From positions 930,001 through 994,000 of the forward strand of contig NZ_CP146606.1 in NCBI RefSeq assembly GCF_032842945.2: a stretch of DNA of 64,000 nucleotides, read 5' to 3'. The stretch's first letter is position 1; the number at the start of each line of letters is the position of its first letter. A program made the position numbers and the translations under genes. Source of the DNA: Roseovarius sp. W115. Its GTDB lineage: Bacteria; Pseudomonadota; Alphaproteobacteria; Rhodobacterales; Rhodobacteraceae. Shown piece by piece: positions 1-15,318 of the stretch. The notes beneath the pieces are model-generated. The model saw nothing but the letters and a program-made list of their open reading frames with translations, was not told where the DNA came from and made no database searches.

Positions 1-164
1 GCGGTTGGATCGGCAAAATCTGCCGTGATATCCTCATGATCAGAGGACCCGCGCTGTGCACAAAAGACCCGTGCGCCACCCTCTGCCAGAAGGGCCGCTG
101 TCGCCGCGCCCATGCCGCTGGATGCCCCTGTAACGAGTGCGGTTTTTCCCTCAAAGCGGCTCAT
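1..164 (-). CDS. Short-chain dehydrogenase/reductase, N-terminal part (cut by window edge)
   Basis: The minus strand from the ATG at 164 encodes MSRFEGKTALVTGASSGMGA, the start of a classical SDR with the TGxxxGxG dinucleotide-binding motif, followed by the first beta-alpha-beta unit. Only 54 codons are visible before the left edge. The ATG overlaps the stop codon of the preceding SDR as ATGA, so the two are translationally coupled and belong to the same operon as the P450 and the HpbD-like epimerase. The substrate is unknown. By context it may oxidise an alcohol made during betaine or aldehyde breakdown. Confidence 0.8.
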   Translation of the reverse strand, partial: MSRFEGKTALVTGASSGMGAATAALLAEGGARVFCAQRGSSDHEDITADFADPT

Positions 165-891
165 ATCACAGGCTTCCCACCATTGACCTCAACCAACGCG
201 CCACACATGTACCGCGCGGCATCGGAGGCGAGAAAGAGCATCACATCGACGATCTCCTGCGGGCTGGCGATATGGCCCACCGGGACGCTGGCATTGAGCT
301 CGTCAATCGCCTTCTCCGGGTCCAACCCCGGATCGCGAAACCGGTGCGCAACATGGGTGTGTCGACTTCATTTGGACAGACCGCGTTCACACGAATGCCC
401 TGATGCGCGTGGTCCCGGCCCAGGCATTGCGTGAGAGACGCCACCGCCGCTTTGCTCATGACATAAAGTGGGTGGTTGGCCCCGGGGCGCAGGCCCCAGC
501 AGGACGACGTGTTCACAATTGCCCCACCCCCGCGCGCAGTCAGGATCGGCACAGCGGCGCGGCAAATGCGAAACGGCGCCTCGACATTGACACCCATGGT
601 CAAGCTCCAGTCTGCATCGCTTGTCTCGGTTATGTCGCCACGTGTAATGACCCCGGCATTGTTGAAGACCATGTCGAGACCACCAAGGGCCGCCTCGGCC
701 TGTCCCGGCAAGGCATCACAGAACGCCCCATCGAGCAGATCTCCATCGAGATGCGCATCGGCCTCTACCCCGCTACTGTCGCGATCACTTACCGCCACGC
801 GCGCGCCTTCGGCGCGCAAGCTTGCGGCAAGGACCACGCCAATCCCGCCCGCACCTCCGGTGACAAGCGCTGATTTCCCTTCAAATCGCAT
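161..891 (-). pseudogene. Short-chain dehydrogenase/reductase, interrupted by a 1-base frameshift
   Basis: The start is taken at ATG 891, which has GAGGTGG just upstream and lies inside the end of the P450 gene. The N-terminal part shows TGGAGGIG (cofactor binding), NNAG and the catalytic YVMSK. After the conserved VNAVCPNEVDTPM segment the frame runs into unrelated sequence, while the neighbouring frame continues as RGLDPEKAIDEL...FLASDAARYM...VNGGKPVI, a normal SDR C-terminus ending at TGA 161-163. Adding one C to the C4 run at 326-329 restores a 243-residue protein of standard SDR length. It could be a sequencing or assembly error or a real recent mutation. The reaction is probably NAD(P)-dependent oxidation of a hydroxy intermediate in the neighbouring catabolic pathway; the substrate is not identifiable. 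Confidence 0.8.
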
Positions 892-2074
892 GATCCACCT
901 CATATCGAATGGGCAGGCTTAGTGCGCCCGTGTTGCCACTGTCGGGTAGCCACTCTGGCGTGCCGTCGTAGGACACTGTGCGAAACGTCCGGCGCAGCGC
1001 CGCGAGCGCACAGGCCGTGTCGGTGCGTGCCACGAAATGCCCGATGCAATGATGTGCACCGCCGCCAAAGCCAAAGTGCTTGCGACGCTTCGCCTTGATG
1101 TCAAAGGAAGGGTCTTCGCAAATTTCAGGGTCGCGCGCACTGGCGTGAACCAGAAGATGCAGCACCGTGCCTTTGGCGATATGAACGCCGTCGAGATCGA
1201 CATCTTCCATTGCTTCGCGTGTGGCCCAAGTGGTGGTCGGACGGGCGCGGATGAATTCCTCAACGGCGGCAGGGATCAGGGACGCATCGTTCCGCAGCGC
1301 GCGCCATTGATCCGAATTCTCGATAAAAAGCGACAGCCCAAGTCCCAGCAAGGCGCGCGTCGTATCCACCCCTCCAAAGATTGAGATCACGATGGTATTG
1401 AGAAGTTCTTCGTAGCTGCAATCGCCGTTGCGATGAAATTCCGCCACCATGCGCGCCACGTAAGAGCTGCTATCGCGGCCCTTGCGCACCTTGCCGACAA
1501 GTTTGTCGGAAAGATCGAACAACGTCTCGCAGGCCTTGTTGAATCGCGCCTGATACTTGGGCGCCTCAATCCCCATGGCCAGACCGAGATCAGCGGCATT
1601 GTGGGCCACCAGCGGCCAGTCTTGGCGATCCATCCCCAGAAGCGTGGTGATCGCCTGCCCGGCGAAGGGCTCGCAAAAGGCGGTTTGGAATTCACAGTGA
1701 TCCTTTTCGCGCAGAGTTTTGCATAGATCCTGGGCAATCTCATCAAAGGCGGGCTTGAGGCTGCGCACATAGTCTTCTCTTAGCGCCGGGATCGCCAGGG
1801 CGCGCAGTTTTTGGTGCTCTGCACCTTCTCGGCCGATAACCGATGCACGCCAGAAATCGGCAAAGCTGCCTTCGATGCCCACCGTGTCAGGCCAGTTGTG
1901 GCTGCCCTGTCGGAAGCGCCGGTCGCGCAGAATTTTGCCCACCTGCCGATAGCGCAGCACCGCGAGACCAAAGGGCGTCTCGGCGCACCAATGGGTATCG
2001 CGCGCCGCAATAACTTCCGGGCCGCGTGTGGACACTGCCCCGTCCGCTAGATCGAGATATGGCAGCCCACCCAC
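881..2074 (-). CDS. Cytochrome P450
   Basis: A 397-residue soluble bacterial P450. Visible landmarks are the I-helix GGVDTT, the ExxR motif in EEFIR, and the heme-ligand loop FGFGGGAHHCIGH with the proximal cysteine. The start is GTG at 2074, three bases after the stop of the epimerase gene. The end overlaps the following SDR start, so it sits inside a tight operon. No ferredoxin or ferredoxin reductase gene is adjacent, so electron partners must come from elsewhere. P450s can hydroxylate or oxidatively N-demethylate small amines. Next to an HpbD-like epimerase and an MttB-like protein, a role in N-demethylation or ring hydroxylation of a betaine is plausible but is inference. Confidence 0.93.
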   Translation of the reverse strand: MGGLPYLDLADGAVSTRGPEVIAARDTHWCAETPFGLAVLRYRQVGKILRDRRFRQGSHNWPDTVGIEGSFADFWRASVIGREGAEHQKLRALAIPALREDYVRSLKPAFDEIAQDLCKTLREKDHCEFQTAFCEPFAGQAITTLLGMDRQDWPLVAHNAADLGLAMGIEAPKYQARFNKACETLFDLSDKLVGKVRKGRDSSSYVARMVAEFHRNGDCSYEELLNTIVISIFGGVDTTRALLGLGLSLFIENSDQWRALRNDASLIPAAVEEFIRARPTTTWATREAMEDVDLDGVHIAKGTVLHLLVHASARDPEICEDPSFDIKAKRRKHFGFGGGAHHCIGHFVARTDTACALAALRRTFRTVSYDGTPEWLPDSGNTGALSLPIRYEVDHAI

Positions 2075-2077
2075 GGC

Positions 2078-3184
2078 CTATCCCCCAAATGAGGCCGCTG
2101 GCACGCCGAACATATTAGGATCAGGTGTCACGCCAAGTCCCGGCCCCTCTGGCAGGTTGATGTGACCGCCTTCTATCCGTACGCCACCGTTTGGATCATA
2201 ATGCCCGTCTATATAAGGCTGCGCCAGCCACACGCCTTCAAGCAGGTCAGGCCGCACCGTCGCCCCAAGATGTACGCAGGCTGCGTTGACGATATCCCCA
2301 CCCCAGCTGTCCTCACAGGAATGCGCCATACGCCGCACCGCTGCGATATCGCGGAAGGTCGACGCCGGGCGCAGCCCGCCCAAACGCGAGATTTTCATCC
2401 CGAACCCGTCCACCAGGCCGTCCCCCACCAGACGCAGCAGCGTGTTGAGATCGACCATGCTCTCATCAATATGGATCGGGTGGTGCATCATGGGGCGGAT
2501 GCGGGCGATTTCCTCAATGGTATTGCAGGGCTGTTCCAGCACGAAGGGGATATCCTGACACTCCCGCGACAGGCGCAGGGCATCACTGGCACTCATGCCA
2601 CGATTTGGGTCCACAAGCACCCGCGCGCGGTGGCCAATGACTTCATGCACCTTACGCAGAGTGGCGATGTCTTCGGCCACATCACGCCCACCTGCTTTGA
2701 TCTGAATGCGGGGGTACCCCTCATCGACCTTCTCAAGCGCCAAAGCAGCAATCCCTTCCGGCGTGCCAATCCCGGTGGCGTAGTAGGAGGGCAACCGGGT
2801 CTGATAGGCCCCGCCCAGAAGCGTGGCCACTGACACACCGAGCGAACGCCCCAACGCATCATGCACGGCGATATCCACAGCAGAGCGCGCATAGTTACCG
2901 CCCTCAATCATCCCATCAATCGCGGCCTGCACGGCATTGACGGACAGTTCCACTCCGATGAGCCCGGCACCAATGTCGTTGAGCAACGCGCGCACGCCAC
3001 TGGCTTGCACCGGGGCATAGAGCGGACCGATGGGGCACACCTCTCCCCAGCCGTCGACACCTGCCTCTGTGACCAGCTGCACGAGCGTTGTTTCAAGCGA
3101 CCAGACCGGCCCGTGTGACATGGTGTAGGGCCCGTTTTTGACCGGCAGATCGTGGTGATAGATATGGAACTCTTTGATACGCAT
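2078..3184 (-). CDS. hpbD: Enolase-superfamily epimerase, hydroxyproline-betaine/proline-betaine 2-epimerase-like
   Basis: A 368-residue protein of the mandelate racemase/muconate lactonizing enzyme group. It resembles the Pelagibaca HpbD family as I recall it: N-terminal DLPVKNGPYT, WGEVCPIGPLYAP, ALRLSRECQDIPFVLEQPCN and the HSCEDSWGGDI segment. Lys163 (RIQIKAGG) and Lys264 (FGMKISR) lie where the two 1,1-proton-transfer bases are expected. Asp192, Glu217 and Asp240 fit the Mg2+ ligands. HpbD-type enzymes epimerise trans-4-hydroxyproline betaine or racemise proline betaine at C2 as the first catabolic step. The ATG overlaps the mttB-like stop (TGATG), showing coupling. No Rieske demethylase of the classical hpb pathway is present in the window. 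Exact substrate stereochemistry cannot be read from sequence. Confidence 0.85.
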   Translation of the reverse strand: MRIKEFHIYHHDLPVKNGPYTMSHGPVWSLETTLVQLVTEAGVDGWGEVCPIGPLYAPVQASGVRALLNDIGAGLIGVELSVNAVQAAIDGMIEGGNYARSAVDIAVHDALGRSLGVSVATLLGGAYQTRLPSYYATGIGTPEGIAALALEKVDEGYPRIQIKAGGRDVAEDIATLRKVHEVIGHRARVLVDPNRGMSASDALRLSRECQDIPFVLEQPCNTIEEIARIRPMMHHPIHIDESMVDLNTLLRLVGDGLVDGFGMKISRLGGLRPASTFRDIAAVRRMAHSCEDSWGGDIVNAACVHLGATVRPDLLEGVWLAQPYIDGHYDPNGGVRIEGGHINLPEGPGLGVTPDPNMFGVPAASFGG

Positions 3185-4737
3185 CAGTAGTCCTGATTAA
3201 GGGCGTCTGCGGCGGGAATTTCCCGTTCCCGCCGGGCGATATAGTCTAGCAAGGCCTCATTCTTGGCTTCATCAAGCTTGGGCTCTTCGTAGTCGTTCAG
3301 CATCTGACGTGTGTAGTTGAGCGCGCGCTCATTGGCCTCAACCGCGCCCTCGGCTTGCCATTGCTCAATTGAGTTGTTGTCGAAGAGTTCCGGCATGAAG
3401 AACGCCCGCTGGAAATTCTCCAGCGTGTGCGGATGGCCCAGGTAGTGCCCACCTGGACCCACGTCTGTCACCGCAGCAATCGCCTCGTCAAAATCATCCC
3501 AGCGAATACCCTCCGCCATGCGGTAGGCCATCGCACATTGCTCGGCATCAATCACGAACTTGGCCATAGAACAATGCATCCCTGCCTCGTTCCAACCGGC
3601 CGAATGCCACATGTAATTCGTGCCCGCCATCTGTAGCGCCATGAGCGTCGTTGCACTCTCATACCCCGCCTGCGCGTCCAACGTCTTGGCCCCGCCCAGC
3701 GTGTTGGATGACCGCCAAGGCACGCCATAATGCCGCGCCATCTGGCCGATCATCAGGTTCATCAGGCTGATCTCTGGCGTGCCTGCCATTGGGGCACCGG
3801 ATTTCATGCTGACGGTGCTCAGGTAATGCCCATAGATCGCCGGACATCCTTTGCGCACCACTTGCGTGTAGGCCAGCGCACTGAGCGCTTCAGCGTTCAG
3901 CTGCGCCACCGTGGGTGCAACGGACGCAGGCGTGTTGGCCCCGCCCAACACAAAAGGCGAGCACAGCACAGGCTGGTTGCGTTTGTTAAACGCTCGCATC
4001 GCACCCAGCATGGTCTCATCCCAGACCAGCGGCGAGTTCCCGTTGCAATTGCCCGTCACCACCGGATGTGTTTCGATATAGTCCTCACCAAACAGGATCG
4101 CGCACATCTCCATCACATCTTCCGCGTTCTTGGGGCTTGTCGTCATGCCCATGAACGTCTTGTCGGAATGCTTCATCGAGGAATAGGTGATCCGCAAGTG
4201 CCGCTGGCTGATAGGGTGATCATAGGGCTCAACGATATGATGCGCAGAGGAATGCATCGCGGGGAGCATATGGCTCAGCTTGTGGAAATTCGCGAGGTCG
4301 TCGAGCGTCGGATTGCGGCGCACATCGTCAAGATCACGCAGATAAGGCGCGCCGGTCATGGGCACAAAGATCGCATGATCCTTTCCAAACGGGAGCGTAT
4401 TGTTTGGATTGCGCGCGTGGTAAGTGAACGTTTCGGGGATGGAAGCGATCAGCTCCCGCACCAGCCCGCGATCCAGATGCACCCGGTCGCCATCGCGCAC
4501 ATCCGCGCCTGCACTTTTCCAATCGGCGATCGCGATATCATCGCGGAAAACCACGCCGACACTTTCGAGGATATCCATGGAGGCGGCATCAATGCGCTCA
4601 ATCTGTTCGGCATCCATTGGCTCTGTCAGAGGAATGCCCCGCTTGAGCGCGGGCAGCATTGTCACATCCCGAGCCTGTCGCGCCTGCTTGCGCGCGCCGC
4701 GACCGCGGCGGACGGTTCCTACGGCTTCAACGGTCAT
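3184..4737 (-). CDS. MttB-superfamily (trimethylamine methyltransferase-like) corrinoid methyltransferase, pyrrolysine-free
   Basis: A 517-residue uninterrupted reading frame of the MttB/COG5598 family, recognised by the overall barrel sequence (for example DILESVGVVF, HARNPNNTLPFG, GAPYLRDLDDVRR, GTPEISLMNLMIGQMA, DVGPGGHYLGHPHT). There is no in-frame amber codon, so it belongs to the non-pyrrolysine branch. Known members of that branch demethylate quaternary amines such as glycine betaine, proline betaine or carnitine and pass the methyl group to a corrinoid protein. GGAGG lies four bases before the ATG, and the gene overlaps the unknown 125-residue gene upstream. No corrinoid protein, RamA activator or second methyltransferase is in the window, so the acceptor system is unresolved. 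By context the substrate is probably a proline-type betaine. Confidence 0.9.
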   Translation of the reverse strand: MTVEAVGTVRRGRGARKQARQARDVTMLPALKRGIPLTEPMDAEQIERIDAASMDILESVGVVFRDDIAIADWKSAGADVRDGDRVHLDRGLVRELIASIPETFTYHARNPNNTLPFGKDHAIFVPMTGAPYLRDLDDVRRNPTLDDLANFHKLSHMLPAMHSSAHHIVEPYDHPISQRHLRITYSSMKHSDKTFMGMTTSPKNAEDVMEMCAILFGEDYIETHPVVTGNCNGNSPLVWDETMLGAMRAFNKRNQPVLCSPFVLGGANTPASVAPTVAQLNAEALSALAYTQVVRKGCPAIYGHYLSTVSMKSGAPMAGTPEISLMNLMIGQMARHYGVPWRSSNTLGGAKTLDAQAGYESATTLMALQMAGTNYMWHSAGWNEAGMHCSMAKFVIDAEQCAMAYRMAEGIRWDDFDEAIAAVTDVGPGGHYLGHPHTLENFQRAFFMPELFDNNSIEQWQAEGAVEANERALNYTRQMLNDYEEPKLDEAKNEALLDYIARREREIPAADALNQDY

Positions 4738-5104
4738 TTTTGCCTCCGAACATCCTGCCGAAAATTCTGCCCAGAAAATTCTGGCGCCGGGTTGGCTTGA
4801 GGATTCCTAACGAAACTTTTGCGTTCACTACTGCGCCAGGCTGTTTCTCTGCATTAGCATAAATTGCATACAAAGACCCCTCCACGGCTAGGGCCTCGAC
4901 TTCTTCAAGCGAGAAATCCCCTGAATCCAGCAAATCCTGAATTGGTTTGGAAAGTTGTTCGTTGTCGACAAGGTCGATATCTAGCCCGTTAAACTCCAAG
5001 ACTGTGGAGGCAATGGATACTCTTTCTTTGAAAAGAACGTAGGCCGCGATCTCATACCTCGCTGCTGCAAAAAGCTCGTTCATGTCAACTTGAGCTGTCG
5101 TCAT
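4727..5104 (-). CDS. Unknown 125-residue protein between aldehyde dehydrogenase and MttB-like genes
   Basis: I do not recognise a family. The protein is acidic and mostly helical in appearance, then turns basic at the C-terminus (KPTRRQNFLGRIFGRMFGGKNDR-like tail). There is no signal peptide, no clear membrane span, no cysteines and no corrinoid-binding DxHxxG motif. The ATG overlaps the aldehyde dehydrogenase stop as ATGA, and the end overlaps the mttB-like start by 11 bases, so it is translated from the same message. The position suggests an accessory role for the methyltransferase or dehydrogenase, but that is inference. Base composition is somewhat more AT-rich than the flanking genes. 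Confidence 0.75.
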   Translation of the reverse strand: MTTAQVDMNELFAAARYEIAAYVLFKERVSIASTVLEFNGLDIDLVDNEQLSKPIQDLLDSGDFSLEEVEALAVEGSLYAIYANAEKQPGAVVNAKVSLGILKPTRRQNFLGRIFGRMFGGKNDR

Positions 5105-6594
5105 CCCACCAAATCCCCATCCCTGGGATCACTCAGATCGACCCAAATCGTCTTCACTTCTGTAAACTGATCATGCGCATGGATGCCGTTGTCGCGCCCG
5201 CCAAAGCCGGATTGCTTGAAGCCGCCAAAGGGCGTCGCGATATCGCCTTCGCCGTAGCAATTCACCGTGACCGTACCCGCGCGTATGTTTTTCGCAGCAC
5301 TTAAAGCACGGCGAATGTTGCCGGTGAAGACCGACGCCGCCAGCCCATACTCGGTATCATTGGCCAGCTCTATTGCCTCGGCTTCGCTGGCCACCTCGAT
5401 GACACTCAGCACGGGTCCGAAGATCTCTTCCCTGGCGCGCGCGTCGGACTTGTTCACGTCATAAACCGTCGGCACCACAAAGTTACCCTTGGGCTTGGCC
5501 CCGCCAGCCACCGCCTTTCCCTTGAGATACCCCGCCACCTTCTTGCAATGCTCTGCGTCCACAAGCGCCCCAAAGTGGTTGGCCGGGTCCAACGGATCAC
5601 CTGTTTTCCAATCCCGCATGCGGGCCACGATCCTCTCCATCAGCGGCTCTTTGACGGCCTTATGAACGATCAGACGCGAGGTGGCCGAGCAATTCTCTCC
5701 CATATTCCAGAAGGCTGCATTCACCACATGTTCGGCCACATGGTCGAGGTTTTCGGCATCCTCCAGCACCACAGCCGGGTTCTTGCCACCACATTCCAGC
5801 GTGACCTTTTTCATATTGCTATCAGCGGCATAACGCAGGAACCGTTTGCCGGTCTCGGTCGATCCGGTGAAACTCACCATATCCACATCCAAATGCAGAC
5901 CGAGCGGCTCGCCCACGCTTGGCCCATTCCCCGGCAGTACCTGCAAGACCCCGCGCGGGATACCCGCCATATGTGCCACCTCTGCCAAACGCAGCGCCGT
6001 CAGGCTGGTCTGTTCGGCAGGTTTCACAATCACCGAATTGCCCGCCGCTAGGGCCGGGCCAATTTTCCAGGCCATCATCAAAAGCGGGAAATTCCATGGC
6101 AAGACACAGGCCACCACGCCAATCGGCTCGCGCACGATCATGCTCAGCGCATCATCGCCTGAGGGGCCAACCTGATCATAAATCTTGTCAATCAGCTCCC
6201 CATGCCACTTGATCGTGTGGATAGTTTCAGGGATGTCGATCATCTCGCAATCGCGAATGGGTTTGCCACTGTCGAGGCTCTCCATCACAGCTAGCTCATG
6301 CCGCCGCCGCGTGATCAGCTTGCACAGGCGAATGAGCACATCCTTGCGGTCACTGGGATGCGCTTTGGACCACTCACCCCGATCAAACGCCTCGCGCGCT
6401 TTCTGCACCGCAAAATCCACATCCTTCTGTCCGGCGGTGCTAACCTTCGTTAAGACCTTCCCCGTTGCAGGGTTCACTGTCTCCATCATCGGGCCCGCGC
6501 CCTTGCGGAATTTTCCATCCACAAACGGCGCGGCGGGAAAGTCCATCTCCGCGGCAATCGCGCCATATTCATCCCGTGTCAGCAATTCAGTCAT
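5101..6594 (-). CDS. NAD(P)-dependent aldehyde dehydrogenase
   Basis: A 497-residue ALDH superfamily enzyme. PWNF (about 167-170), FTGSTETGKR, catalytic Glu267 in TLECGGKNP and catalytic Cys302 in NMGENCSAT are all present, and the length is standard. The start is ATG 6594, with AAGGGTGAG upstream; a GTG lies one codon earlier. It resembles the PuuC/aminoaldehyde branch of the family. In (hydroxy)proline-betaine pathways the equivalent step oxidises alpha-ketoglutarate semialdehyde to alpha-ketoglutarate. The DHDPS-family lyase directly upstream makes this role attractive, but a betaine- or amino-aldehyde substrate is equally possible. Confidence 0.93.
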   Translation of the reverse strand: MTELLTRDEYGAIAAEMDFPAAPFVDGKFRKGAGPMMETVNPATGKVLTKVSTAGQKDVDFAVQKAREAFDRGEWSKAHPSDRKDVLIRLCKLITRRRHELAVMESLDSGKPIRDCEMIDIPETIHTIKWHGELIDKIYDQVGPSGDDALSMIVREPIGVVACVLPWNFPLLMMAWKIGPALAAGNSVIVKPAEQTSLTALRLAEVAHMAGIPRGVLQVLPGNGPSVGEPLGLHLDVDMVSFTGSTETGKRFLRYAADSNMKKVTLECGGKNPAVVLEDAENLDHVAEHVVNAAFWNMGENCSATSRLIVHKAVKEPLMERIVARMRDWKTGDPLDPANHFGALVDAEHCKKVAGYLKGKAVAGGAKPKGNFVVPTVYDVNKSDARAREEIFGPVLSVIEVASEAEAIELANDTEYGLAASVFTGNIRRALSAAKNIRAGTVTVNCYGEGDIATPFGGFKQSGFGGRDNGIHAHDQFTEVKTIWVDLSDPRDGDLVG

Positions 6595-6622
6595 CACCGC
6601 TCACCCTTCCATCGCTCGCGTT

Positions 6623-6679
6623 CCGGGCTTGACCCGGGACCTCTTGGCCAACGTAGAGATCCCGGCTCTTCGGCCGGGA
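6623..6679. repeat. Pair of GC-rich palindromes between lyase and aldehyde dehydrogenase genes
   Basis: Two inverted repeats sit in the 117-base gap. The first is CCGGGCTTGACCCGGG at 6623-6638 and the second is TCCCGGCTCTTCGGCCGGGA at 6660-6679. A related element lies near 62410. The sequence type resembles dispersed intergenic palindromes common in alphaproteobacteria. They could form RNA hairpins that process or stabilise the operon message. Confidence 0.6.
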
Positions 6680-6711
6680 CGCGACAGCGCAATATGTCAA
6701 ACAAAATTCGC

Positions 6712-7620
6712 TCATATCTTGCCCCCCTCAATGGCCGCAATCGCCGTGTTCATCGTGCGGATCACTTCCTCAAGCGCCCGCCGATCGTCTTTGTTCAAAG
6801 GTTGCAACGGCTTGCGCGGTGGACCCGCTTCAACCCCACGCATGGTTAGCCCATGTTTGATGCACTGAATGAATTTACCGCCTTGCTCCAGCACCCGCAT
6901 CAGCGGCATCATCGCCGACATGATCGCGCGCCCTTTGGTGAAATCGCCTTCCAGCACACAAGCCCGGTAGAGCGCCACGTGCGCTTCAGGTGCAAAGTTT
7001 GACCCCGCGCAAACCCAGCCGCGCGCGCCCCAAGCAAAGAATTCCAGCGCCTGGTCATCCATACCGCAGAGCAGGCCCAAATGCGGATAGTCCCGGCCAA
7101 TCAGATGCAAACGATTGATATCTCCAGAACTTTCCTTGATCCCGCAGAAATTCGGATTGCGCCCCAGCCGGTCCAGCGTCTCTTCATCCATGTTCACACC
7201 CATCCGGCCCGGATAATTGTAAAGCATGACCGGCAGGTTCGCCGCACGGTCAATCGCCAACGCATGCAGCGCAATTTCACGCCCTGTTGGCACCGCGTAG
7301 GGCGGTGTGGCCACCAAGAGTGCATCGGCGCCGATCTCAACGGCGGCCTTGGCGTAGTCAATGCTATCTTCTGTGCGCATCGCCCCGGTGCCCATCACCA
7401 TCGGTACACGGCCCTTGATCAACGCTTTGATCCGGCGCGCCAAATCCACACGCTCCTCAAAGCTCTGCGCGTAATACTCCCCCGTCGTACCCGCCGCGAT
7501 GATGCCATGCACACCACCCGCAATGAGTAATTCAACCGTTTCGGCCAGAGCAACCTCATTGAGCGAGAAATCCGGGTGATACGGCGTCACAATCGGGGTC
7601 CATATGCCCTCAAACTGCAT
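6712..7620 (-). CDS. Dihydrodipicolinate synthase/N-acetylneuraminate lyase family enzyme (HypD-like candidate)
   Basis: A 302-residue class I aldolase-type TIM barrel. It shows the GTTGEYY loop (about 44-50), YNYPGRMGV with the catalytic tyrosine (about 134-142) and the Schiff-base Lys162 in GIKESSGD. GGAGG precedes the ATG, and the start overlaps the GntR gene stop by 11 bases. A true DapA is unlikely because the gene lies in a catabolic operon with a GntR regulator. In hydroxyproline and hydroxyproline-betaine pathways a DHDPS-family protein (HypD) deaminates pyrroline-4-hydroxy-2-carboxylate to alpha-ketoglutarate semialdehyde. The following aldehyde dehydrogenase would complete that route. 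The assignment by context is inference. Confidence 0.9.
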   Translation of the reverse strand: MQFEGIWTPIVTPYHPDFSLNEVALAETVELLIAGGVHGIIAAGTTGEYYAQSFEERVDLARRIKALIKGRVPMVMGTGAMRTEDSIDYAKAAVEIGADALLVATPPYAVPTGREIALHALAIDRAANLPVMLYNYPGRMGVNMDEETLDRLGRNPNFCGIKESSGDINRLHLIGRDYPHLGLLCGMDDQALEFFAWGARGWVCAGSNFAPEAHVALYRACVLEGDFTKGRAIMSAMMPLMRVLEQGGKFIQCIKHGLTMRGVEAGPPRKPLQPLNKDDRRALEEVIRTMNTAIAAIEGGKI

Positions 7621-8314
7621 GCGCGCCTCCTCTTTCGGTCAAAAAATCTATGGGAAGTGGATCAGGGGTGACAAACCGCTCCAGCCGGTCACGCGACAGG
7701 TTCCAGTGATCAATCGTCAGATCCACCGCGCGCTCTGCCTCACGCGCCGCAAAGGCCGCGATCATAGCATCATGCTGGTCGACGGCTTGCGCCACGCGCG
7801 CGGCTTCGTCGTCTGATGCGGGGCGGTAAAATGTCTGGCTGAGCCGCGTGTGATCAATCAACATGCGCTTCAGACTTGGCAGCAGATAGGGATTGCGCGC
7901 CATCTCGCCAATGCACAGATGAAACCGGTGGTTGAGCAACGCGGCCTTCCCGGCATCTCCGGATTCTGTTGCTGTACGAAAATCACCTTGCAGGGCGCGC
8001 AATCTGGCCAGATCCAAGTCCTGCCGGTTTTCCGCCGCAAGCCGCGCCACACTGGCATAGATCACCGGGGCCGTCTGAAAGAACATCCGCATGACAGCCA
8101 AATCCATCGACGCCACTTTCGCACCGCGGTTCTGGGTCAGTTCCACATACCCCTCACCGCCAAGCCGTTGAAAAATCTCGCGCATGGGTGTGCGTGACAT
8201 GCCGTAACGCTCACAGAGCGATGCCTCATCAAGATCACTGCCGGGTGCGATATCCAGCGTCAGGATGCGCATCTTGATGTCTTCCAGACAGTGGGCTTTG
8301 CGATCTTTTGTCAT
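7610..8314 (-). CDS. GntR-family transcriptional regulator, FCD (FadR-type) subgroup
   Basis: 234 residues. The N-terminal winged helix contains the GntR signature region SDLDEASLCERYGMSRTPMRE. The remainder is an all-helical FCD-type ligand domain with metal-ligand-like residues (NHRFH, QHDAM). It is the first gene of the betaine-type operon and is overlapped by the DHDPS-family gene. A perfect ten-base palindrome, ATGTATACAT, lies 24 bases upstream of the start and looks like an operator, so the protein probably autoregulates the operon. The ligand is probably the pathway substrate or an organic-acid intermediate. Confidence 0.92.
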   Translation of the reverse strand: MTKDRKAHCLEDIKMRILTLDIAPGSDLDEASLCERYGMSRTPMREIFQRLGGEGYVELTQNRGAKVASMDLAVMRMFFQTAPVIYASVARLAAENRQDLDLARLRALQGDFRTATESGDAGKAALLNHRFHLCIGEMARNPYLLPSLKRMLIDHTRLSQTFYRPASDDEAARVAQAVDQHDAMIAAFAAREAERAVDLTIDHWNLSRDRLERFVTPDPLPIDFLTERGGAHAV

Positions 8315-8429: not shown

Positions 8430-9026
8430 TCACCGTCGCCCGATCGGTGGGTCAGCGCGGCTTGCGTCCCAATCTGGCTCAAACCCAAGCACCTCAGTCG
8501 CGGGCGGCAAGGTCGGATTGAATAGAATATTATGCGCCATGGTGGCCTGATGCAGAAGGTTATGCGGCGCCAGCCGCCAGATTTTGCATTCCAGATCAAA
8601 CCGTTGACCATAGGCCTCAAAGGTCAGGGTTGCATGCTTTGCCTCATGCAACGTCTTGGCCCCCGGAGATCCAGGTGGAAAGGTCGCGGTCAGGATGTCG
8701 GAAAATTCCTTGGCCTTCTGGTAGTAGGTCGCCGACAGAAACTGCAGCGCGTTTTGCCGCCGCTGGGCCGGGTCATTTGTCTTGGCCGCCATATGCTGTA
8801 ACTCAGGCGTCACCGAATAGCCCGGCGCTTTGTTCATCACCGTGATCACCGCGCCGAGCGGCTCTGCCGCACCCTTTGGCGTGACTTCTGGCATGATCGC
8901 ATCATCGGGGCGACCGTCATTGTTGCGCATGGACAATTGCCGCACATGGCACTGCCATTTCAGAAACGCCAACCGCAGCGGGTTGTCGGAAAAACTCTGG
9001 CCCAACTGGGCAGCAAGAGAGCTCAT
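8430..9026 (-). CDS. Unknown 198-residue protein, last gene of the glnT-glx unit
   Basis: No family recognised. The protein is soluble, with no signal peptide or membrane span. It carries several His and Trp residues in the C-terminal third (LHEAKHATLTFEAYG, KIWRLAPHNLLHQATMAHN), which could be a metal- or cofactor-binding surface, but no known motif is seen. The ATG overlaps the stop of the nitrilase-family gene (ATGA), so it is co-translated. A terminator follows. It belongs functionally with GlnT, GlxBCD and the amidase. Confidence 0.8.
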   Translation of the reverse strand: MSSLAAQLGQSFSDNPLRLAFLKWQCHVRQLSMRNNDGRPDDAIMPEVTPKGAAEPLGAVITVMNKAPGYSVTPELQHMAAKTNDPAQRRQNALQFLSATYYQKAKEFSDILTATFPPGSPGAKTLHEAKHATLTFEAYGQRFDLECKIWRLAPHNLLHQATMAHNILFNPTLPPATEVLGFEPDWDASRADPPIGRR

Positions 9027-9874
9027 GCCACACTCCTTTTTGCGTCCACAGACACAAGCGTGAATTCCTGTTCATTGGCGAGACTTGGAATGCGGGCTTC
9101 TGTTTCCACGACCTGATCCAGATCGATCTGCGCCTGCACCACACCGGGGATTGTGCCGCCATCGGCAATCACTTCGCCCCAGGGATTGATGACCAGAGAA
9201 TGGCCATAGCTTTCGCCACCACCGGGGACCGGACCAATCGCACAGGGAGAGATGACAAAACGCGTGTTTTCAATCGCCCGCGCACGGTTGAGCACATGCC
9301 AATGTGCTTCGCCCGTTTTCTTGGTAAAGGCCGCTGGGCAAATCAAAATCTCCGCGCCCGCCTGCGCAAGACTGCGCCACAGATCGGGAAACCGCAGATC
9401 ATAGCAAATCGTATGACCGATGCGCGCAAAGGGCGTGTCATGGATGACGGCCTCGCAACCCGCTTCGACATGTGCGCTTTCGCGGTAGACTTCCGTCTCG
9501 CTCAGCTGAATGTCGAACATGTTGATCTTGTCATAGCGTCCGCGAATGTGCCCGGCATCGTCGAGCATGATCCCACGGTTGATGATCCGCCCATCCGGGC
9601 CATCCACGGCAATCGAGCCGAGATTGATCCAGACACGCCTGTCGCGTGCTAAAGCCTGCATGGCCTGAAGAAACGGATGAGACGCCTCAGGGGCAGAGGG
9701 CGGTGCCACAGCCGCCCCTTCGGTTTTCAACCCGCCGCAATATTCCGGCAGGAAGAGCATATCCGCGCCCGCTTTGACTGCAGCTTCGGCCAACGGCATC
9801 GCCTCGTCCAGCGCCGACTGAAAGTCGGGCATTGGCCTTGTTTGAAGGCAAGCGATATCAAGCGGGCGCGGCAT
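9023..9874 (-). CDS. Carbon-nitrogen hydrolase (nitrilase superfamily amidase)
   Basis: 283 residues. The catalytic triad of the superfamily is visible: Glu44 (FLPEYCGG), Lys116 (RYDKINMFD) and Cys157 (GHTICYDLRFPDL). The overall form matches the Nit1/Nit2-like branch that hydrolyses small amides such as deaminated glutathione or omega-amides. It lies between two unknown genes in the glnT-glx operon, five bases from the preceding stop and overlapping the next gene. An amidase here could release an amine or ammonia from a gamma-glutamyl or other amide produced by the GlnT-like ligase. The substrate is inference. Confidence 0.93.
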   Translation of the reverse strand: MPRPLDIACLQTRPMPDFQSALDEAMPLAEAAVKAGADMLFLPEYCGGLKTEGAAVAPPSAPEASHPFLQAMQALARDRRVWINLGSIAVDGPDGRIINRGIMLDDAGHIRGRYDKINMFDIQLSETEVYRESAHVEAGCEAVIHDTPFARIGHTICYDLRFPDLWRSLAQAGAEILICPAAFTKKTGEAHWHVLNRARAIENTRFVISPCAIGPVPGGGESYGHSLVINPWGEVIADGGTIPGVVQAQIDLDQVVETEARIPSLANEQEFTLVSVDAKRSVA

Positions 9875-9878
9875 GTTT

Positions 9879-10292
9879 TTAGAACTTCATATACGCCTTG
9901 CGCAGGTTGACCAAAGGATGCCGGTCCGACATCTGGAACTTGATCAAAAGCTCGCGCGCGATCATGTCCCGATCCTGCTGGTTGTCCGGCAGCTCAATGG
10001 TATCCGGCACGCGCACCCAGCCGTTGTTGTTGCGGTCAAACACCGCAGGTGCGCCTTCCTCATAGCCCATGTGAACATCTTCGAGCCAGTTGAGGTCGTC
10101 CCAGCCCATGACCTCCATATACTTGGTCAAAAAGGGCGTGATCCGGTTGTAATCCGGCACAAGGTTCACGTCGTAACGATAGCCAATGTGCTGACCGATT
10201 TCTTTTTCGCGCTCGGACTCAAGCCCATCTGCGTCTTTCAGGAACTGGTCGACATCCTTGATCTCGGAGCCGCGATATTGTGTTCCAGCCAT
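9879..10292 (-). CDS. Unknown 137-residue protein after glxD
   Basis: No family recognised. The sequence is acidic and hydrophilic (for example QYRGSEIKDVDQFLKDADG, WDDLNWLEDVHMGYEEGAP), without signal peptide, membrane span or cysteine. GGAGG lies seven bases before the ATG. It follows glxD after a gap holding two palindromic repeats and is five bases from the amidase gene. The conserved-looking aromatic and acidic composition suggests a small subunit or accessory protein of the neighbouring enzymes, with no direct evidence. Confidence 0.8.
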   Translation of the reverse strand: MAGTQYRGSEIKDVDQFLKDADGLESEREKEIGQHIGYRYDVNLVPDYNRITPFLTKYMEVMGWDDLNWLEDVHMGYEEGAPAVFDRNNNGWVRVPDTIELPDNQQDRDMIARELLIKFQMSDRHPLVNLRKAYMKF

Positions 10293-10309
10293 TTTGTTTT
10301 CCTCCGTTA

Positions 10310-10364
10310 GGTGGGGTGGAACCCCACCCTACGCGTCAATGGTAGGGTGGGTTTTAAACCCACC
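10310..10364. repeat. Two tandem palindromes of the GGTGGGxTxxAACCCACC type
   Basis: The gap between glxD and the 137-residue gene contains two inverted repeats. One (10310-10332) has arms GGTGGGGT/ACCCCACC and the other (10341-10364) has arms GGTGGGTTT/AAACCCACC, each with a TAGGGTGGG-like flank. A third copy is at 62473-62497. They are extragenic palindromes of a kind dispersed in Roseobacter genomes. Here they could form hairpins inside the operon message. Confidence 0.75.
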
Positions 10365-10366
10365 GT

Positions 10367-11731
10367 TTACAGGTGGTGATAATCCTCGACGCCAACCGTG
10401 TGGTTGGTGCCTGCGAGTGGAACACCGGCCATGGCCGACGCTTCCATCGTCAAGGCTGCAAGGTCCTCAGGCTCAAGGCTGTGCAGATATGTTTTGCCGC
10501 AAGCACGGGCAAAGAGCTGCGCCTCGATGGTCAGCGTATGCAGGAAGTTGTACACGCGTTCGGCTGCCTCATCCGGGTCAAGCCGCTCACGCAGCTTGGG
10601 GTCTTGCGTGGCCACACCCACCGGGCAACGGCCCGTGTGACAGTGGTAGCAATAGCCCGGCTCAGACCCGATTTCCTCGGGATAGTTCGCCTCGGGTATG
10701 TCCTTGTTGCAGTTCAGCGCCATCATGGCCGAGTGACCGATGGCAATCGCATCCGCGCCCAGCGCGATGGCCTTGGCCACATCCGCACCGTTCCGGATAC
10801 CGCCCGCATAAACAAGGCTGATCTCACCGCGTTTGCCCAGATCGTCAATCGCCTTCCGCGCCTGACGGATTGCGGCCATGCCCGGCACACCAGTGTCTTC
10901 GGTCGCAAGGTGCGGGCCCGCGCCCGTGCCGCCTTCCATACCATCGATATAGATACTGTCGGGGTCACATTTCACGGCCATCCGCACGTCGTCATAGACA
11001 CGGGACGCACCCAGCTTGAGCTGGATCGGGATTTGCCAGTCTGTGGCTTCGCGGATCTCCTGAATTTTCAGCGCAAGGTCGTCGGGACCCAGCCAGTCAG
11101 GGTGACGCGCGGGCGAGCGTTGGTCGATCCCGGCAGGAAGCGACCGCATCTCGGCAACCTGGTCGGTCACTTTCTGACCCATCAAGTGGCCACCCAGACC
11201 AACCTTACAGCCTTGGCCAATGAAGAACTCACAGCCATCCGCCAGAACAAGGTGATTGGGGTTAAAGCCATAGCGTGACTGGATGCACTGATAGAACCAC
11301 TTGGAGCTATAGCGCCGCTCATCGGGGATCATGCCCCCTTCGCCTGAACAGGTCGCCGTGCCTGCCATGGTCGCCCCACGGGCCAGAGCCGTCTTCGCCT
11401 CATAGGACAAAGCACCAAAGCTCATGCCAGTGATGTAGACTGGGATGTCCAGCTCCAGCGGCACTTTTGCGCGGGGGCCGATCACGGTCTTGGTTTCACA
11501 TTTCTCACGATAGCCTTCGATCACAAAGCGTGTGAGTGTCCCCGGCAGAAATGTCAGGTCATCCCAGTGCGGAATCTTCTTGAAGAGCGAGAAACCCCGC
11601 ATCCGGTAGCGTCCCAGCTCGGATTTGATGTGGATATCATCCATCACCCGTGGTGGGAAAATAAAGCTGTCACCGATACGGTTTACGTCGCGGTCCAGCG
11701 CCTTTTTTGTCGGCAGATCTCCGTCAGCCAT
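10367..11731 (-). CDS. glxD: Glutamate-synthase-like FMN/Fe-S protein (GlxD)
   Basis: A 454-residue homologue of the central FMN-binding region of the glutamate synthase large subunit. SFGALSYEAKTALARG, GEGGMIPDERRYSS, DGMEGGTGAGP and the cysteine cluster CYHCHTGRCPVGV (an iron-sulfur ligand site) are present. With GlxB (amidotransferase domain) and GlxC (GXGXG domain) it reconstitutes a split GltB. The homologous MgsABC set makes N-methylglutamate in methylamine-using bacteria. No mgdABCD dehydrogenase genes are nearby, so the exact product is uncertain. The start has AAAGGA upstream and lies 58 bases after glxC. Confidence 0.93.
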   Translation of the reverse strand: MADGDLPTKKALDRDVNRIGDSFIFPPRVMDDIHIKSELGRYRMRGFSLFKKIPHWDDLTFLPGTLTRFVIEGYREKCETKTVIGPRAKVPLELDIPVYITGMSFGALSYEAKTALARGATMAGTATCSGEGGMIPDERRYSSKWFYQCIQSRYGFNPNHLVLADGCEFFIGQGCKVGLGGHLMGQKVTDQVAEMRSLPAGIDQRSPARHPDWLGPDDLALKIQEIREATDWQIPIQLKLGASRVYDDVRMAVKCDPDSIYIDGMEGGTGAGPHLATEDTGVPGMAAIRQARKAIDDLGKRGEISLVYAGGIRNGADVAKAIALGADAIAIGHSAMMALNCNKDIPEANYPEEIGSEPGYCYHCHTGRCPVGVATQDPKLRERLDPDEAAERVYNFLHTLTIEAQLFARACGKTYLHSLEPEDLAALTMEASAMAGVPLAGTNHTVGVEDYHHL

Positions 11732-11789
11732 ATGTCATATCCTTTCCTAGATGGAATGGCACAGCCCGGTTGCCCGGGCCGGGGCCGAA

Positions 11790-12659
11790 TTACAGAATGA
11801 GCTTCTTCTCGGTGGGCTCAAGATTGTCGTAGTTCCACAGCATCTTGCCCGCGACGATCTTGGTGAAATGATCCACGCCTTTGTCGGGCATCAGGCCGTA
11901 TTGCGTGAGCTTGCGTGTGAGCCAGGCCTTGTCGAGATCGGTCAGCTCAGCTTCAACCGCGTCCACACCCAATGACTTGATTTCACCCCCGACAAAGATC
12001 GTGCCGTCATACATCGAGTCGCCCAGGTTCTTGCCTGCGTTGCCGCAGACCACCATGCGGCCCCGCTGCATCATGAAGCCCGAAAGCGCACCGGTGTCGC
12101 CACCCACGATAATCGTGCCGCCCTTCTGGTCGATGCCCGTCCGAGATCCAACCGAGCCACGGCAAACCAAGTCACCGCCACGAATGGCCGCGCCAAAAGT
12201 CGAGCCGGCATTCTTCTCGATCATGATCGTGCCGGACATCATGTTCTCACCGCAGGACCAGCCAACCCGGCCATTGATGCGCACATTCGGCCCGTCAATC
12301 AGACCAACCGCAAAGTAGCCCGTAGACCCTTCGATGATCAGGTTCAGTTTGCTGAGGATGCCCACACCAAGCGAATGCATGCCGCGCGGGTTCTTAAGCA
12401 CCACCGTGCCGTAGCCCTGCGCCATCAGATCACGAATGCCGGAATTCACTTCCGTTGTGGTCATCCCATCGCAATCCATCTCGGTGCGCTTGTTGAAATC
12501 AACATCAGGTGCCCAAGGATAGGTGAAGCGCTCTTCGGCATCGGGGTCAAACTCTACATAGAGCGATTTGCCCGTCAGCGCTTCGGTGCGCATCCCCAGA
12601 GCGGTCACCCGCTCTTCCTGGGTCATTTCCTTCAGTTCTGCGTCTGTTACGCCTGCCAT
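11790..12659 (-). CDS. glxC: Glutamate-synthase GXGXG-domain protein (GlxC)
   Basis: 289 residues dominated by the right-handed beta-helix repeats typical of the C-terminal GltB domain (GYGTVVLKNPRG, GRVGWSCGENMMSG, GGTIIVGGDTGALSG, GTIFVGGEIKSLG). It is a stand-alone version of that domain and should act as the structural subunit joining GlxB and GlxD. The start overlaps the glxB end by 13 bases and has GAGG upstream. Confidence 0.93.
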   Translation of the reverse strand: MAGVTDAELKEMTQEERVTALGMRTEALTGKSLYVEFDPDAEERFTYPWAPDVDFNKRTEMDCDGMTTTEVNSGIRDLMAQGYGTVVLKNPRGMHSLGVGILSKLNLIIEGSTGYFAVGLIDGPNVRINGRVGWSCGENMMSGTIMIEKNAGSTFGAAIRGGDLVCRGSVGSRTGIDQKGGTIIVGGDTGALSGFMMQRGRMVVCGNAGKNLGDSMYDGTIFVGGEIKSLGVDAVEAELTDLDKAWLTRKLTQYGLMPDKGVDHFTKIVAGKMLWNYDNLEPTEKKLIL

Positions 12660-13582
12660 ACCCGGACCTCCTCGTCATATGGGTCATACGTGTCGATCTC
12701 TTCGGGAAGGATCGCGCGGATTGCCACCTCTTCTGAGGCCATCGCAATCAGGTCATCACTTTCGTAAAGAACCAGTGGTTTTGCCGCCATTGTGTCCTTG
12801 GCCATGCCAAGCTGATCTTTGGTCGCCACCAGATAGGTAAACACGCCATCAATCTCTTCGATCGACTGGCGCAGGCTGTCCTCAAGCGACACACCATTGG
12901 CAAGGTTGTGCGCAGTGTAGACGGCCAGAAGCTCGGAGTCGCAGTTGGACATGAACCGGTGGCCCTTGCGCTCCATCTCGCGGCGCATGATCCAGTAGTT
13001 GGTGATCTGGCCGTTATGCACAACGCTGACGTCGTTGTAAGGGAACGCCCAGTATGGGTGCGCCGATTTGATGTCCACGTCCGACTCGGTGGCCATGCGG
13101 GTGTGACCAATTGCATGGGTGCCTTGAAAATCATTCAGGCCATAAGCTTCTGACACAACCGTCGCGTCGCCAAGGTCTTTGATCAACTCAAGGCCATTGC
13201 CCATCGAAAGGATCTCAACACCATCGGTCTCTTCGATATGCTCAGCCATCTCGCCGGTGTCACCATCATGGCTGATGACGTAGCGCAGAGAATATTCCCG
13301 AGGGGCATCCTTGGATTTCACCTTGGCGCCATGCTCTTTGAGAATGGCTTCAACCTCGGTGATGCGGTCGGCGATCACCTGATGGATGCCGCGGCCCTTT
13401 TCCATGTCCTCGGCTTCGGCCACCTTCAAGCGCATGATATAGTCGCCCTTGGTGGGGTTGCCGTAGACGGCATAACCGGTGCTGTCAGGCCCCCGGTGTT
13501 TGAGCGCCTGCAACATGGCGGTCATTTCCGACCCGACCGAGCTGCTTTTGCCCTTGTGAATTAGTCCAGCAATTCCACACAT
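12647..13582 (-). CDS. glxB: Class II glutamine amidotransferase domain protein (GlxB)
   Basis: 311 residues. It begins MCGIAGLI, so Cys2 becomes the N-terminal nucleophile after removal of Met. GHTRMATES and the later NCDSELLAVY segment are typical of class II (Ntn) glutaminase domains such as GltB, PurF and GlmS. It should release ammonia, or in the Mgs variant handle an amine, for use by GlxD. It follows glnT by about 80 bases and overlaps glxC. Confidence 0.93.
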   Translation of the reverse strand: MCGIAGLIHKGKSSSVGSEMTAMLQALKHRGPDSTGYAVYGNPTKGDYIMRLKVAEAEDMEKGRGIHQVIADRITEVEAILKEHGAKVKSKDAPREYSLRYVISHDGDTGEMAEHIEETDGVEILSMGNGLELIKDLGDATVVSEAYGLNDFQGTHAIGHTRMATESDVDIKSAHPYWAFPYNDVSVVHNGQITNYWIMRREMERKGHRFMSNCDSELLAVYTAHNLANGVSLEDSLRQSIEEIDGVFTYLVATKDQLGMAKDTMAAKPLVLYESDDLIAMASEEVAIRAILPEEIDTYDPYDEEVRVWQA

Positions 13583-13663
13583 CTGGAAGCGCCTCCTCTG
13601 GGTTGCGTGTTCGTGTAAGGTGGCGGCGAGTTCCTCAACCCGCTGCCAAAAGCATGGTCTGCC

Positions 13664-15142: not shown

Positions 15143-15318
15143 AATATAACTCCCTGATGTTATGCAAGCCTCCGATGGTTCGCCGGCGCTTGCGAATTTT
15201 TGTTTGGTGGCAGGGGGCGAAAAAGCTCCCCTATCATTAACAATTCCCAGAGCCGGTCCAAAAGTCAACCGATTTTGATCCAAATTCGATAATTTTGCTG
15301 GAATACCCCGAAAAATGG

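Follow-up and report, generated by a model that had tools for sequence, protein, structure and literature searches.

An operon of Roseovarius sp. W115 with an MttB-type methyltransferase and an HpbD-like epimerase, a candidate module for corrinoid-dependent demethylation of a proline-type betaine

The HpbD pathway for trans-4-hydroxyproline betaine was reportedly described by Zhao in 2013 and by Kumar in 2014, both cited in PMC4113996. Members of the DAO, DHDPS and aldehyde dehydrogenase (ALDH) superfamilies carry out the steps that follow 4HypE in 4-hydroxyproline breakdown, according to PMC4113996. Aerobic demethylation of glycine betaine by MtgBCD was published in 2025 for Ruegeria pomeroyi DSS-3, where MtgC, MtgD, RamA and a DUF1638 protein are encoded apart from MtgB; its authors also point out that a single genome can hold as many as seven PF06253 genes, and they suggest further substrates (PMC12478193). 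In Eubacterium limosum one corrinoid protein serves several homologues of MttB, among them MtpB, which acts on proline betaine (PMC8604678). Here we describe an operon at the left edge of a 64,000-nucleotide stretch of the Roseovarius sp. W115 genome (G000:C1:930001-994000, hereafter the window), in which an MttB-superfamily methyltransferase gene stands beside that of an HpbD-like epimerase. We are inclined to see in it a module for the catabolism of a proline-type betaine, most likely a betaine of 4-hydroxyproline that serves as a salt protectant; all substrates and reaction steps are those that we infer from gene content, conservation, co-occurrence and the interchange of MttB with a Rieske oxygenase.

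The operon would best be read as a variant of the aerobic MtgBCD system that serves a second substrate. Like the R. pomeroyi system, it has a PF06253 methyltransferase, and homologues of the separately encoded partners are present in the same genome. Unlike MtgB, the MttB studied here shares its operon with an HpbD-like epimerase and with DAO, DHDPS and ALDH enzymes, and therefore a proline-type betaine rather than glycine betaine is indicated. A pairing of MttB with an HpbD-like epimerase operon is not described in the Results and Discussion of PMC12478193, and no paper joining HpbD with MttB was among the open-licence PMC papers listed, a scope outside which most subscription papers fall. 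What appears to be new is the joining of HpbD pathways with MtgBCD-type aerobic demethylation. The operon would represent a candidate second substrate class for aerobic MttB-family demethylation, in an MttB clade present in 76 of 295 family genomes (Rhodobacteraceae, about one genome per genus). If this is true, turnover of proline-type betaines would be tied to vitamin B12 and folate one-carbon metabolism and not to oxygenase chemistry.

The MttB frame has no internal stop and scores 281 bits against TIGR02369, the model of the pyrrolysine-containing MttB, whose cut-off is 525 bits; the enzyme is pyrrolysine-free, as the initial annotation had it. Its nearest solved chains are 4yyc, 2qne and 9yce. 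It shares with E. limosum MtpB, a proline betaine:corrinoid methyltransferase with a shared corrinoid protein, its place among the non-pyrrolysine members of the MttB superfamily; E. limosum, however, is an anaerobic acetogen, and the likeness to MtpB drawn here concerns the superfamily and the proposed reaction. MttB-family matches occur at eight places in the W115 genome, the operon copy included, and the nearest paralogue is 41% identical. Two of the homologues, at G000:C1:1243940-1245444 and 1257157-1258649, are split matches, one with a TGA inside, and may be broken.

A search of the genome for corrinoid-protein and RamA genes, which had been proposed at the outset, returned MtgC-, MtgE- and MtgD-like, RamA-like and DUF1638 genes. 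One locus (L061) encodes an MtgC-like protein with B12-binding domains, an S-methyl_trans protein and DUF1638. The genome also encodes a RamA-like protein (RACo_C_ter) and two Pterin_bind proteins, of 284 and 94 bits, which we take to be FolP and an MtgD-like protein, respectively. MttB-positive genomes contain an MtgC-like match in 73 of 76 cases and a RamA-like match in 75 of 76, and the 11 genomes that have neither are all MttB-negative (one-sided Fisher 0.035).

The second comparison concerns the HpbD pathway and the cluster on plasmid pPAN2 of Paracoccus pantotrophus. The epimerase shares 58% identity with the gene annotated as hpbD on that plasmid, the DAO, DHDPS and ALDH superfamilies recur, and betaine transporters stand near many relatives of the operon. 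Unlike the HpbD pathway, the operon has MttB instead of the Rieske oxygenase, its reductase and fdhA, and two SDRs and sometimes a cytochrome P450 are added; its DHDPS, moreover, belongs to a different subfamily from the one in a Pseudomonas HpbD/Rieske cluster. The absence of a Rieske enzyme claimed at first holds for this neighbourhood: tblastn with four Rieske queries and with reductase, fdhA- and HpbA-like queries gave no match at E<=1e-5 in the window or in L009, a 13-kb stretch that overlaps the window and lies to its left, the rest of the genome being unsearched for a Rieske enzyme.

The HpbD-like character of the epimerase, also part of the initial annotation, was borne out. Its best solved matches were 4e8g, 4izg and 4j1o (481 bits) and 2pmq and 4h2h (427 and 426 bits), followed by a drop to 209 bits. 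These five chains, labelled mandelate racemase/muconate lactonizing enzymes in the PDB table, are presumably the Paracoccus and Pelagibaca HpbD structures. Residues K163, K264, D192, E217, D240 and W319 are kept between the epimerase and annotated hpbD; we take K163/K264 to be the catalytic lysine pair, D192, E217 and D240 the metal ligands and W319 the active-site tryptophan. Given its context, the enzyme is predicted to perform 2-epimerisation of 4-hydroxyproline or proline betaine. Identity as a muconate or dipeptide epimerase was rejected on the fall from 481/427 to 209 bits beyond the nearest chains; cis-3-hydroxy-L-proline dehydratase (NF043002) was rejected at 241 bits against a cut-off of 500, annotated hpbD scoring similarly (243).

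Around related epimerases, MttB mostly replaces the Rieske oxygenase. We examined 103 epimerase loci, the window not among them, of which 84 extend at least 7 kb on both sides. The original tags divided these 84 into 55 with MttB only, 10 with both, 7 with Rieske only and 12 with neither. After Rieske matches of 24-29% (six both-tagged and two Rieske-only loci) had been set aside by hand as another type, the counts were 61, 4, 5 and 14. The initial view that MttB occupies the place of the Rieske enzyme thus stands for most HpbD-type neighbourhoods (61/84) and not for all of them. If true, our reading would explain the 75 of 84 HpbD-like epimerase loci that, regraded, are without a close Rieske enzyme. 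Paracoccus onubensis (L188) carries a Rieske oxygenase and reductase together with epimerase-SDR1-SDR2-DAO-ALDH-DHDPS and no MttB in a 21.1-kb stretch, and Paracoccus sp. MA (L270) combines Rieske and reductase genes with an epimerase and SDRs. We built a tree from 98 rows, all HpbD-like (105 rows less 7 identical ones; muconate and dipeptide epimerases not included), and in it Rieske-tagged epimerases were interspersed with MttB-tagged ones: L188_R1 paired with L186_M (99/85), and L142_R shared a group of four rows with L132_M and L151_M (98/90). A formaldehyde dehydrogenase of the P. pantotrophus type was found near none of 66 MttB-only loci, which is weak evidence since only the P. pantotrophus locus had one; this absence would be expected if the methyl group goes to folate.

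By superfamily, the remaining enzymes would fit a hydroxyproline-like downstream route. The three superfamilies of cis-4-hydroxy-D-proline breakdown, DAO, DHDPS and ALDH (PMC4113996), are all represented in the operon, in line with the HypD-like and dehydrogenase steps initially proposed. Their identities to an uncharacterised HpbD/Rieske cluster of Pseudomonas citri are 59% for ALDH, 44% for DAO and 29% for DHDPS. The DHDPS keeps the lysine in GIKESSG and a YNYP motif, and the ALDH its GENCSA and LECGGK motifs. When the Pseudomonas DHDPS was compared with the PDB, the best 60 matches were generic chains of the DHDPS family. The closest NCBIfam models to the DAO, both far below their cut-offs, were the L-pipecolate oxidase AmaA and a putative aminophosphonate oxidoreductase.

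MttB orthologues (E<=1e-190) in the 76 genomes are 76-89% identical across genera, and epimerase homologues (E<=1e-80) occur in 17 of the 295. Of these 17 genomes, 16 are MttB-positive, compared with 76/295 overall (Fisher 1.4e-9; 4.9e-9 when the W115 genome is left out; both without phylogenetic correction). Among the 76, one is W115 itself, 11 have MttB in epimerase loci and 60 contributed a further MttB locus each to the examination, G041, G078, G115 and G180 being left out. DAO, ALDH and DHDPS are all near MttB in 49 of these 60 loci, the SDR pair in 13, a betaine transporter family in 2 and the epimerase in none. Seen from the epimerase side, 64 of 80 named loci have MttB, and these 64 have all three core enzymes in 53 cases, the SDR pair in 59, a betaine transporter family in 28 and a P450 in 7. 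The MttB/Rieske and core-partner counts were not cleared of duplicate loci, and some of L044-L060 repeat named loci. The core is MttB-DAO-ALDH-DHDPS; the epimerase, with the SDR pair, is an addition to it and is often accompanied by a betaine transporter, since core partners are found near 49 of 60 MttB loci and the epimerase near none. A GntR/FCD regulator gene also adjoins core genes in other genomes. The route first suggested, aerobic demethylation of a proline-type betaine by way of a corrinoid, would be well supported by its genomic context; what has to be revised is that the module is widespread in Rhodobacteraceae, that its core usually lacks the epimerase and that it brings its own DAO. 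The idea of an operon private to this strain was rejected, a 125-residue open reading frame (ORF) alone being strain-specific as far as searched.

Several loci add to this picture. By annotation, plasmid pB of the laboratory strain Cereibacter sphaeroides 2.4.1 (L266) carries a cluster of MttB-epimerase-SDR-SDR, DAO-ALDH-DHDPS-GntR, ProVWX and GlxA, its MttB gene having the locus tag DQL45_RS21315. A pyrroline-5-carboxylate-reductase-like gene, with PRK06476 as its best NCBIfam match, below cut-off, belongs to or adjoins the MttB operon at 10 loci and stands between ALDH and MttB in L112, L191, L194, L201, L203, L212 and L216.

For the reaction sequence we propose that MttB would take a single methyl group off the quaternary ammonium and load it onto MtgC, the shared corrinoid protein, whose gene lies elsewhere. 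From there the methyl group would be handed to tetrahydrofolate by the MtgD-like protein, with RamA and DUF1638 keeping cobalamin reduced. Unlike the Rieske route, this step would consume no O2 and release no formaldehyde. The remaining N-methyl group would leave through a second enzyme, which may be the oxidoreductase of the DAO family, a flavoenzyme like HpbA in clusters that have one, or the P450, the last confined to a few Roseovarius-like relatives. By superfamily analogy, oxidation to a pyrroline and deamination/dehydration by the DHDPS-family enzyme would follow, and the ALDH would finally oxidise 2-oxoglutarate semialdehyde to 2-oxoglutarate. The epimerase, by inversion at C2, and the SDR pair would let more stereoisomers enter, the two SDRs perhaps by inverting the C4 hydroxyl. 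A more far-reaching scenario seems rather unlikely to us: that MttB repeatedly replaced the Rieske enzyme, that in some Roseovarius the P450 took over removal of the second N-methyl group from an HpbA-type flavoenzyme and that, through inversion of the C4 hydroxyl by the SDR pair, every stereoisomer of 4-hydroxyproline betaine would enter one aerobic B12-dependent route.

The P450 is intact, with the heme motif FGFGGGAHHCIG at residue 334, an ExxR motif and an I-helix GGVDTT. In Roseovarius albus (L119) the slot between epimerase and SDR1 is filled by an OYE-type flavoenzyme 47% identical to annotated HpbA (N-methyl-L-proline N-demethylase). The window and L009 are without such a stretch, unlike L119, and the P450 takes that position. 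A role as second demethylase is attractive because of this position, but L112 has both enzymes there, and the P450 may just as well hydroxylate proline betaine. The expectation that hpbD-like, mttB-like and P450 genes form a conserved set did not hold, as a P450 was near the epimerase in just 8 of the 103 other loci. A conserved unit of MttB, P450 and epimerase was rejected on this count and since, in the stretches examined, the more distant homologues of the P450 are not close to MttB. P450 homologues of at least 49% identity belong to MttB-positive genomes in 9 of 9 cases, W115 included, versus 0 of 8 below 49%, a threshold that was chosen after viewing the list.

Several observations weigh against our reading, and some of them would fit a different substrate. 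Most MttB clusters are without the epimerase (0/60) and betaine transporter families are near 2/60, therefore the substrate of the core need not be L-hydroxyproline betaine. No ProW-, ProX-, BCCT- or GlxA-type stretch was detected in the window or L009, two ProV-type matches lying about 30 kb off. The 29% identity between our DHDPS and the Pseudomonas citri copy means that orthology of the DHDPS is not established, and the DAO has no PDB relative at E<=0.001. The operon itself is without a corrinoid protein gene. MtgC-like proteins are found in 273 of the 295 genomes (the two genomes outside the matches listed being deduced as G236 and G273) and RamA-like proteins in 280; they are near-universal and their presence therefore discriminates weakly, and 3/76 and 1/76 MttB-positive genomes even lack an MtgC-like and a RamA-like match, respectively. 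Regrading leaves 14 of the 84 loci in which MttB and a close Rieske enzyme are both missing. Finally, the epimerases of the window, L110, L111, L112 and L059 form a divergent, supported long-branch clade (100/100), 57-59% identical to hpbD and 49% in L059, and SDR1 is out of frame in this strain.

The core MttB-DAO-DHDPS-ALDH might thus degrade a quaternary amine other than a proline derivative, with the epimerase and SDR pair recruited for its stereocentre. The lack of an epimerase at the 60 further MttB loci, a DHDPS of another subfamily than in the Pseudomonas HpbD/Rieske cluster and the divergence of window-type epimerases would all suit such a substrate. We nevertheless consider it unlikely. 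Identity to annotated hpbD reaches at least 67% in 60 of the 70 MttB-tagged epimerase rows and 65-66% in five, the five window-clade rows having 49-59%; because of the 60 rows at or above 67%, epimerases of MttB clusters appear in general nearer to hpbD than the copy of the window itself. L188 pairs the same core with a Rieske enzyme. Proline-racemase-superfamily genes, furthermore, lie in or by some MttB clusters (L057, L167, L168, L244, L247 and L052/L175, the last two probably one genome). At the second active-site position the proteins of L057, L167 and L244 have Thr, those of L168, L247, L052 and L175 Cys; the eLife text links Thr with t3HypD and Cys pairs with 4HypE/ProR.

It is also conceivable, if quite improbable, that the epimerase/SDR branch is decaying in this strain and the core alone works. 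Three-frame reading and alignment showed that, compared with L110 and L111, SDR1 has lost one base from a run of G, with its C-terminal part out of frame; in L112 and L119 the frame is full-length. The long branches of the epimerase clade, with L059 extreme at 1.35 changes per column, would also fit decay. On the other hand, the epimerase keeps its lysine pair and metal ligands and is 97% identical to the L110 copy, and the base missing from SDR1 lies in a G run, in our judgement a common place of assembly errors; the frameshift may be either decay or such an error. The closest named relatives of the epimerase, at 97% and 89%, are from uncultured Roseovarius. A P450 is present in all five loci of the clade, and the P450-bearing loci L113, L114, L122 and L152 lie outside it, grouped with L119 (100/99).

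We regard as very doubtful that MttB is a further glycine betaine or general methyltransferase, with the proline-type betaine demethylated by the P450, the DAO or an unlinked Rieske enzyme: in PMC12478193 aerobic MttB-family demethylation is demonstrated for glycine betaine only and the genome has eight MttB-family places, but the 76-89% identity of the clade across genera, the DAO-ALDH-DHDPS company at 49/60 loci and the distance to the nearest paralogue (41%) argue otherwise. The function may also be homarine breakdown, a gene description of which was not found in the open-licence PMC literature.

The layout of the operon is given in Table 1. All genes of the minus-strand order initially annotated are present with the expected Pfam domains, and the operon extends leftward past the window edge, SDR2 straddling base 1 and the DAO gene following. 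From the GntR/FCD gene to SDR1 the intergenic gaps are -11, 114, -4, -11, -1, 3 and -23 nucleotides.

Table 1. Genes of the operon, in window positions unless a genome coordinate is given
Feature	Position	Strand	Domain evidence and remarks
GntR/FCD-family regulator, first gene of the operon	7610..8314	-	Pfam GntR 4e-11, FCD 6e-19
DHDPS-family lyase; candidate 1-pyrroline-4-hydroxy-2-carboxylate deaminase step	6712..7620	-	PF00701
Aldehyde dehydrogenase; candidate 2-oxoglutarate semialdehyde dehydrogenase step	5101..6597	-	PF00171
125-aa orphan ORF between ALDH and MttB	4727..5104	-	
Non-pyrrolysine MttB-superfamily methyltransferase, proposed betaine:corrinoid methyltransferase	3184..4737	-	PF06253 713 bits
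HpbD-like (4-hydroxyproline betaine 2-epimerase-like) MLE-subgroup enzyme	2078..3184	-	MR_MLE_N + MR_MLE_C
Cytochrome P450	881..2074	-	PF00067
SDR1	241..903	-	PF00106 (adh_short)
SDR2, start only in window	1..164	-	PF13561; whole gene G000:C1:929433-930164
DAO-family FAD oxidoreductase, next after SDR2, outside window	G000:C1:928105-929436		PF01266

The orphan ORF sits exactly in the stop-start overlap of ALDH and MttB and is coupled to both neighbouring genes. It had no homologue but itself in a search of 5.8 billion proteins and none in 389 other genomes of the order sample. The insert is absent from L110 and L111, carries ATGAC on both flanks and has a GC content of 0.48 versus 0.59; as far as searched, no other strain has this insertion.

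Next to the operon, window positions 8430-15283 on the minus strand encode a GlnT-like ligase, GlxB/C/D-like proteins, a carbon-nitrogen hydrolase and two unknowns. The gln_synth_III match of this block is below cut-off, and we assume that the block possibly corresponds to gmaS-mgsABC of methylamine use. In L256, L257 and L259, P450 homologues of about 50% identity are convergent to genes for a DMGDH-like protein and a ProV-like ATPase, with a ProW-like gene in L256 and L257, a set that in our view resembles a trimethylamine N-oxide-use cluster; L259 also carries the GlxD-UNK137-CNHYD-UNK198 block. In L110, L111, L114 and L122, too, parts of the 8430-15283 block are found next to the epimerase operon.

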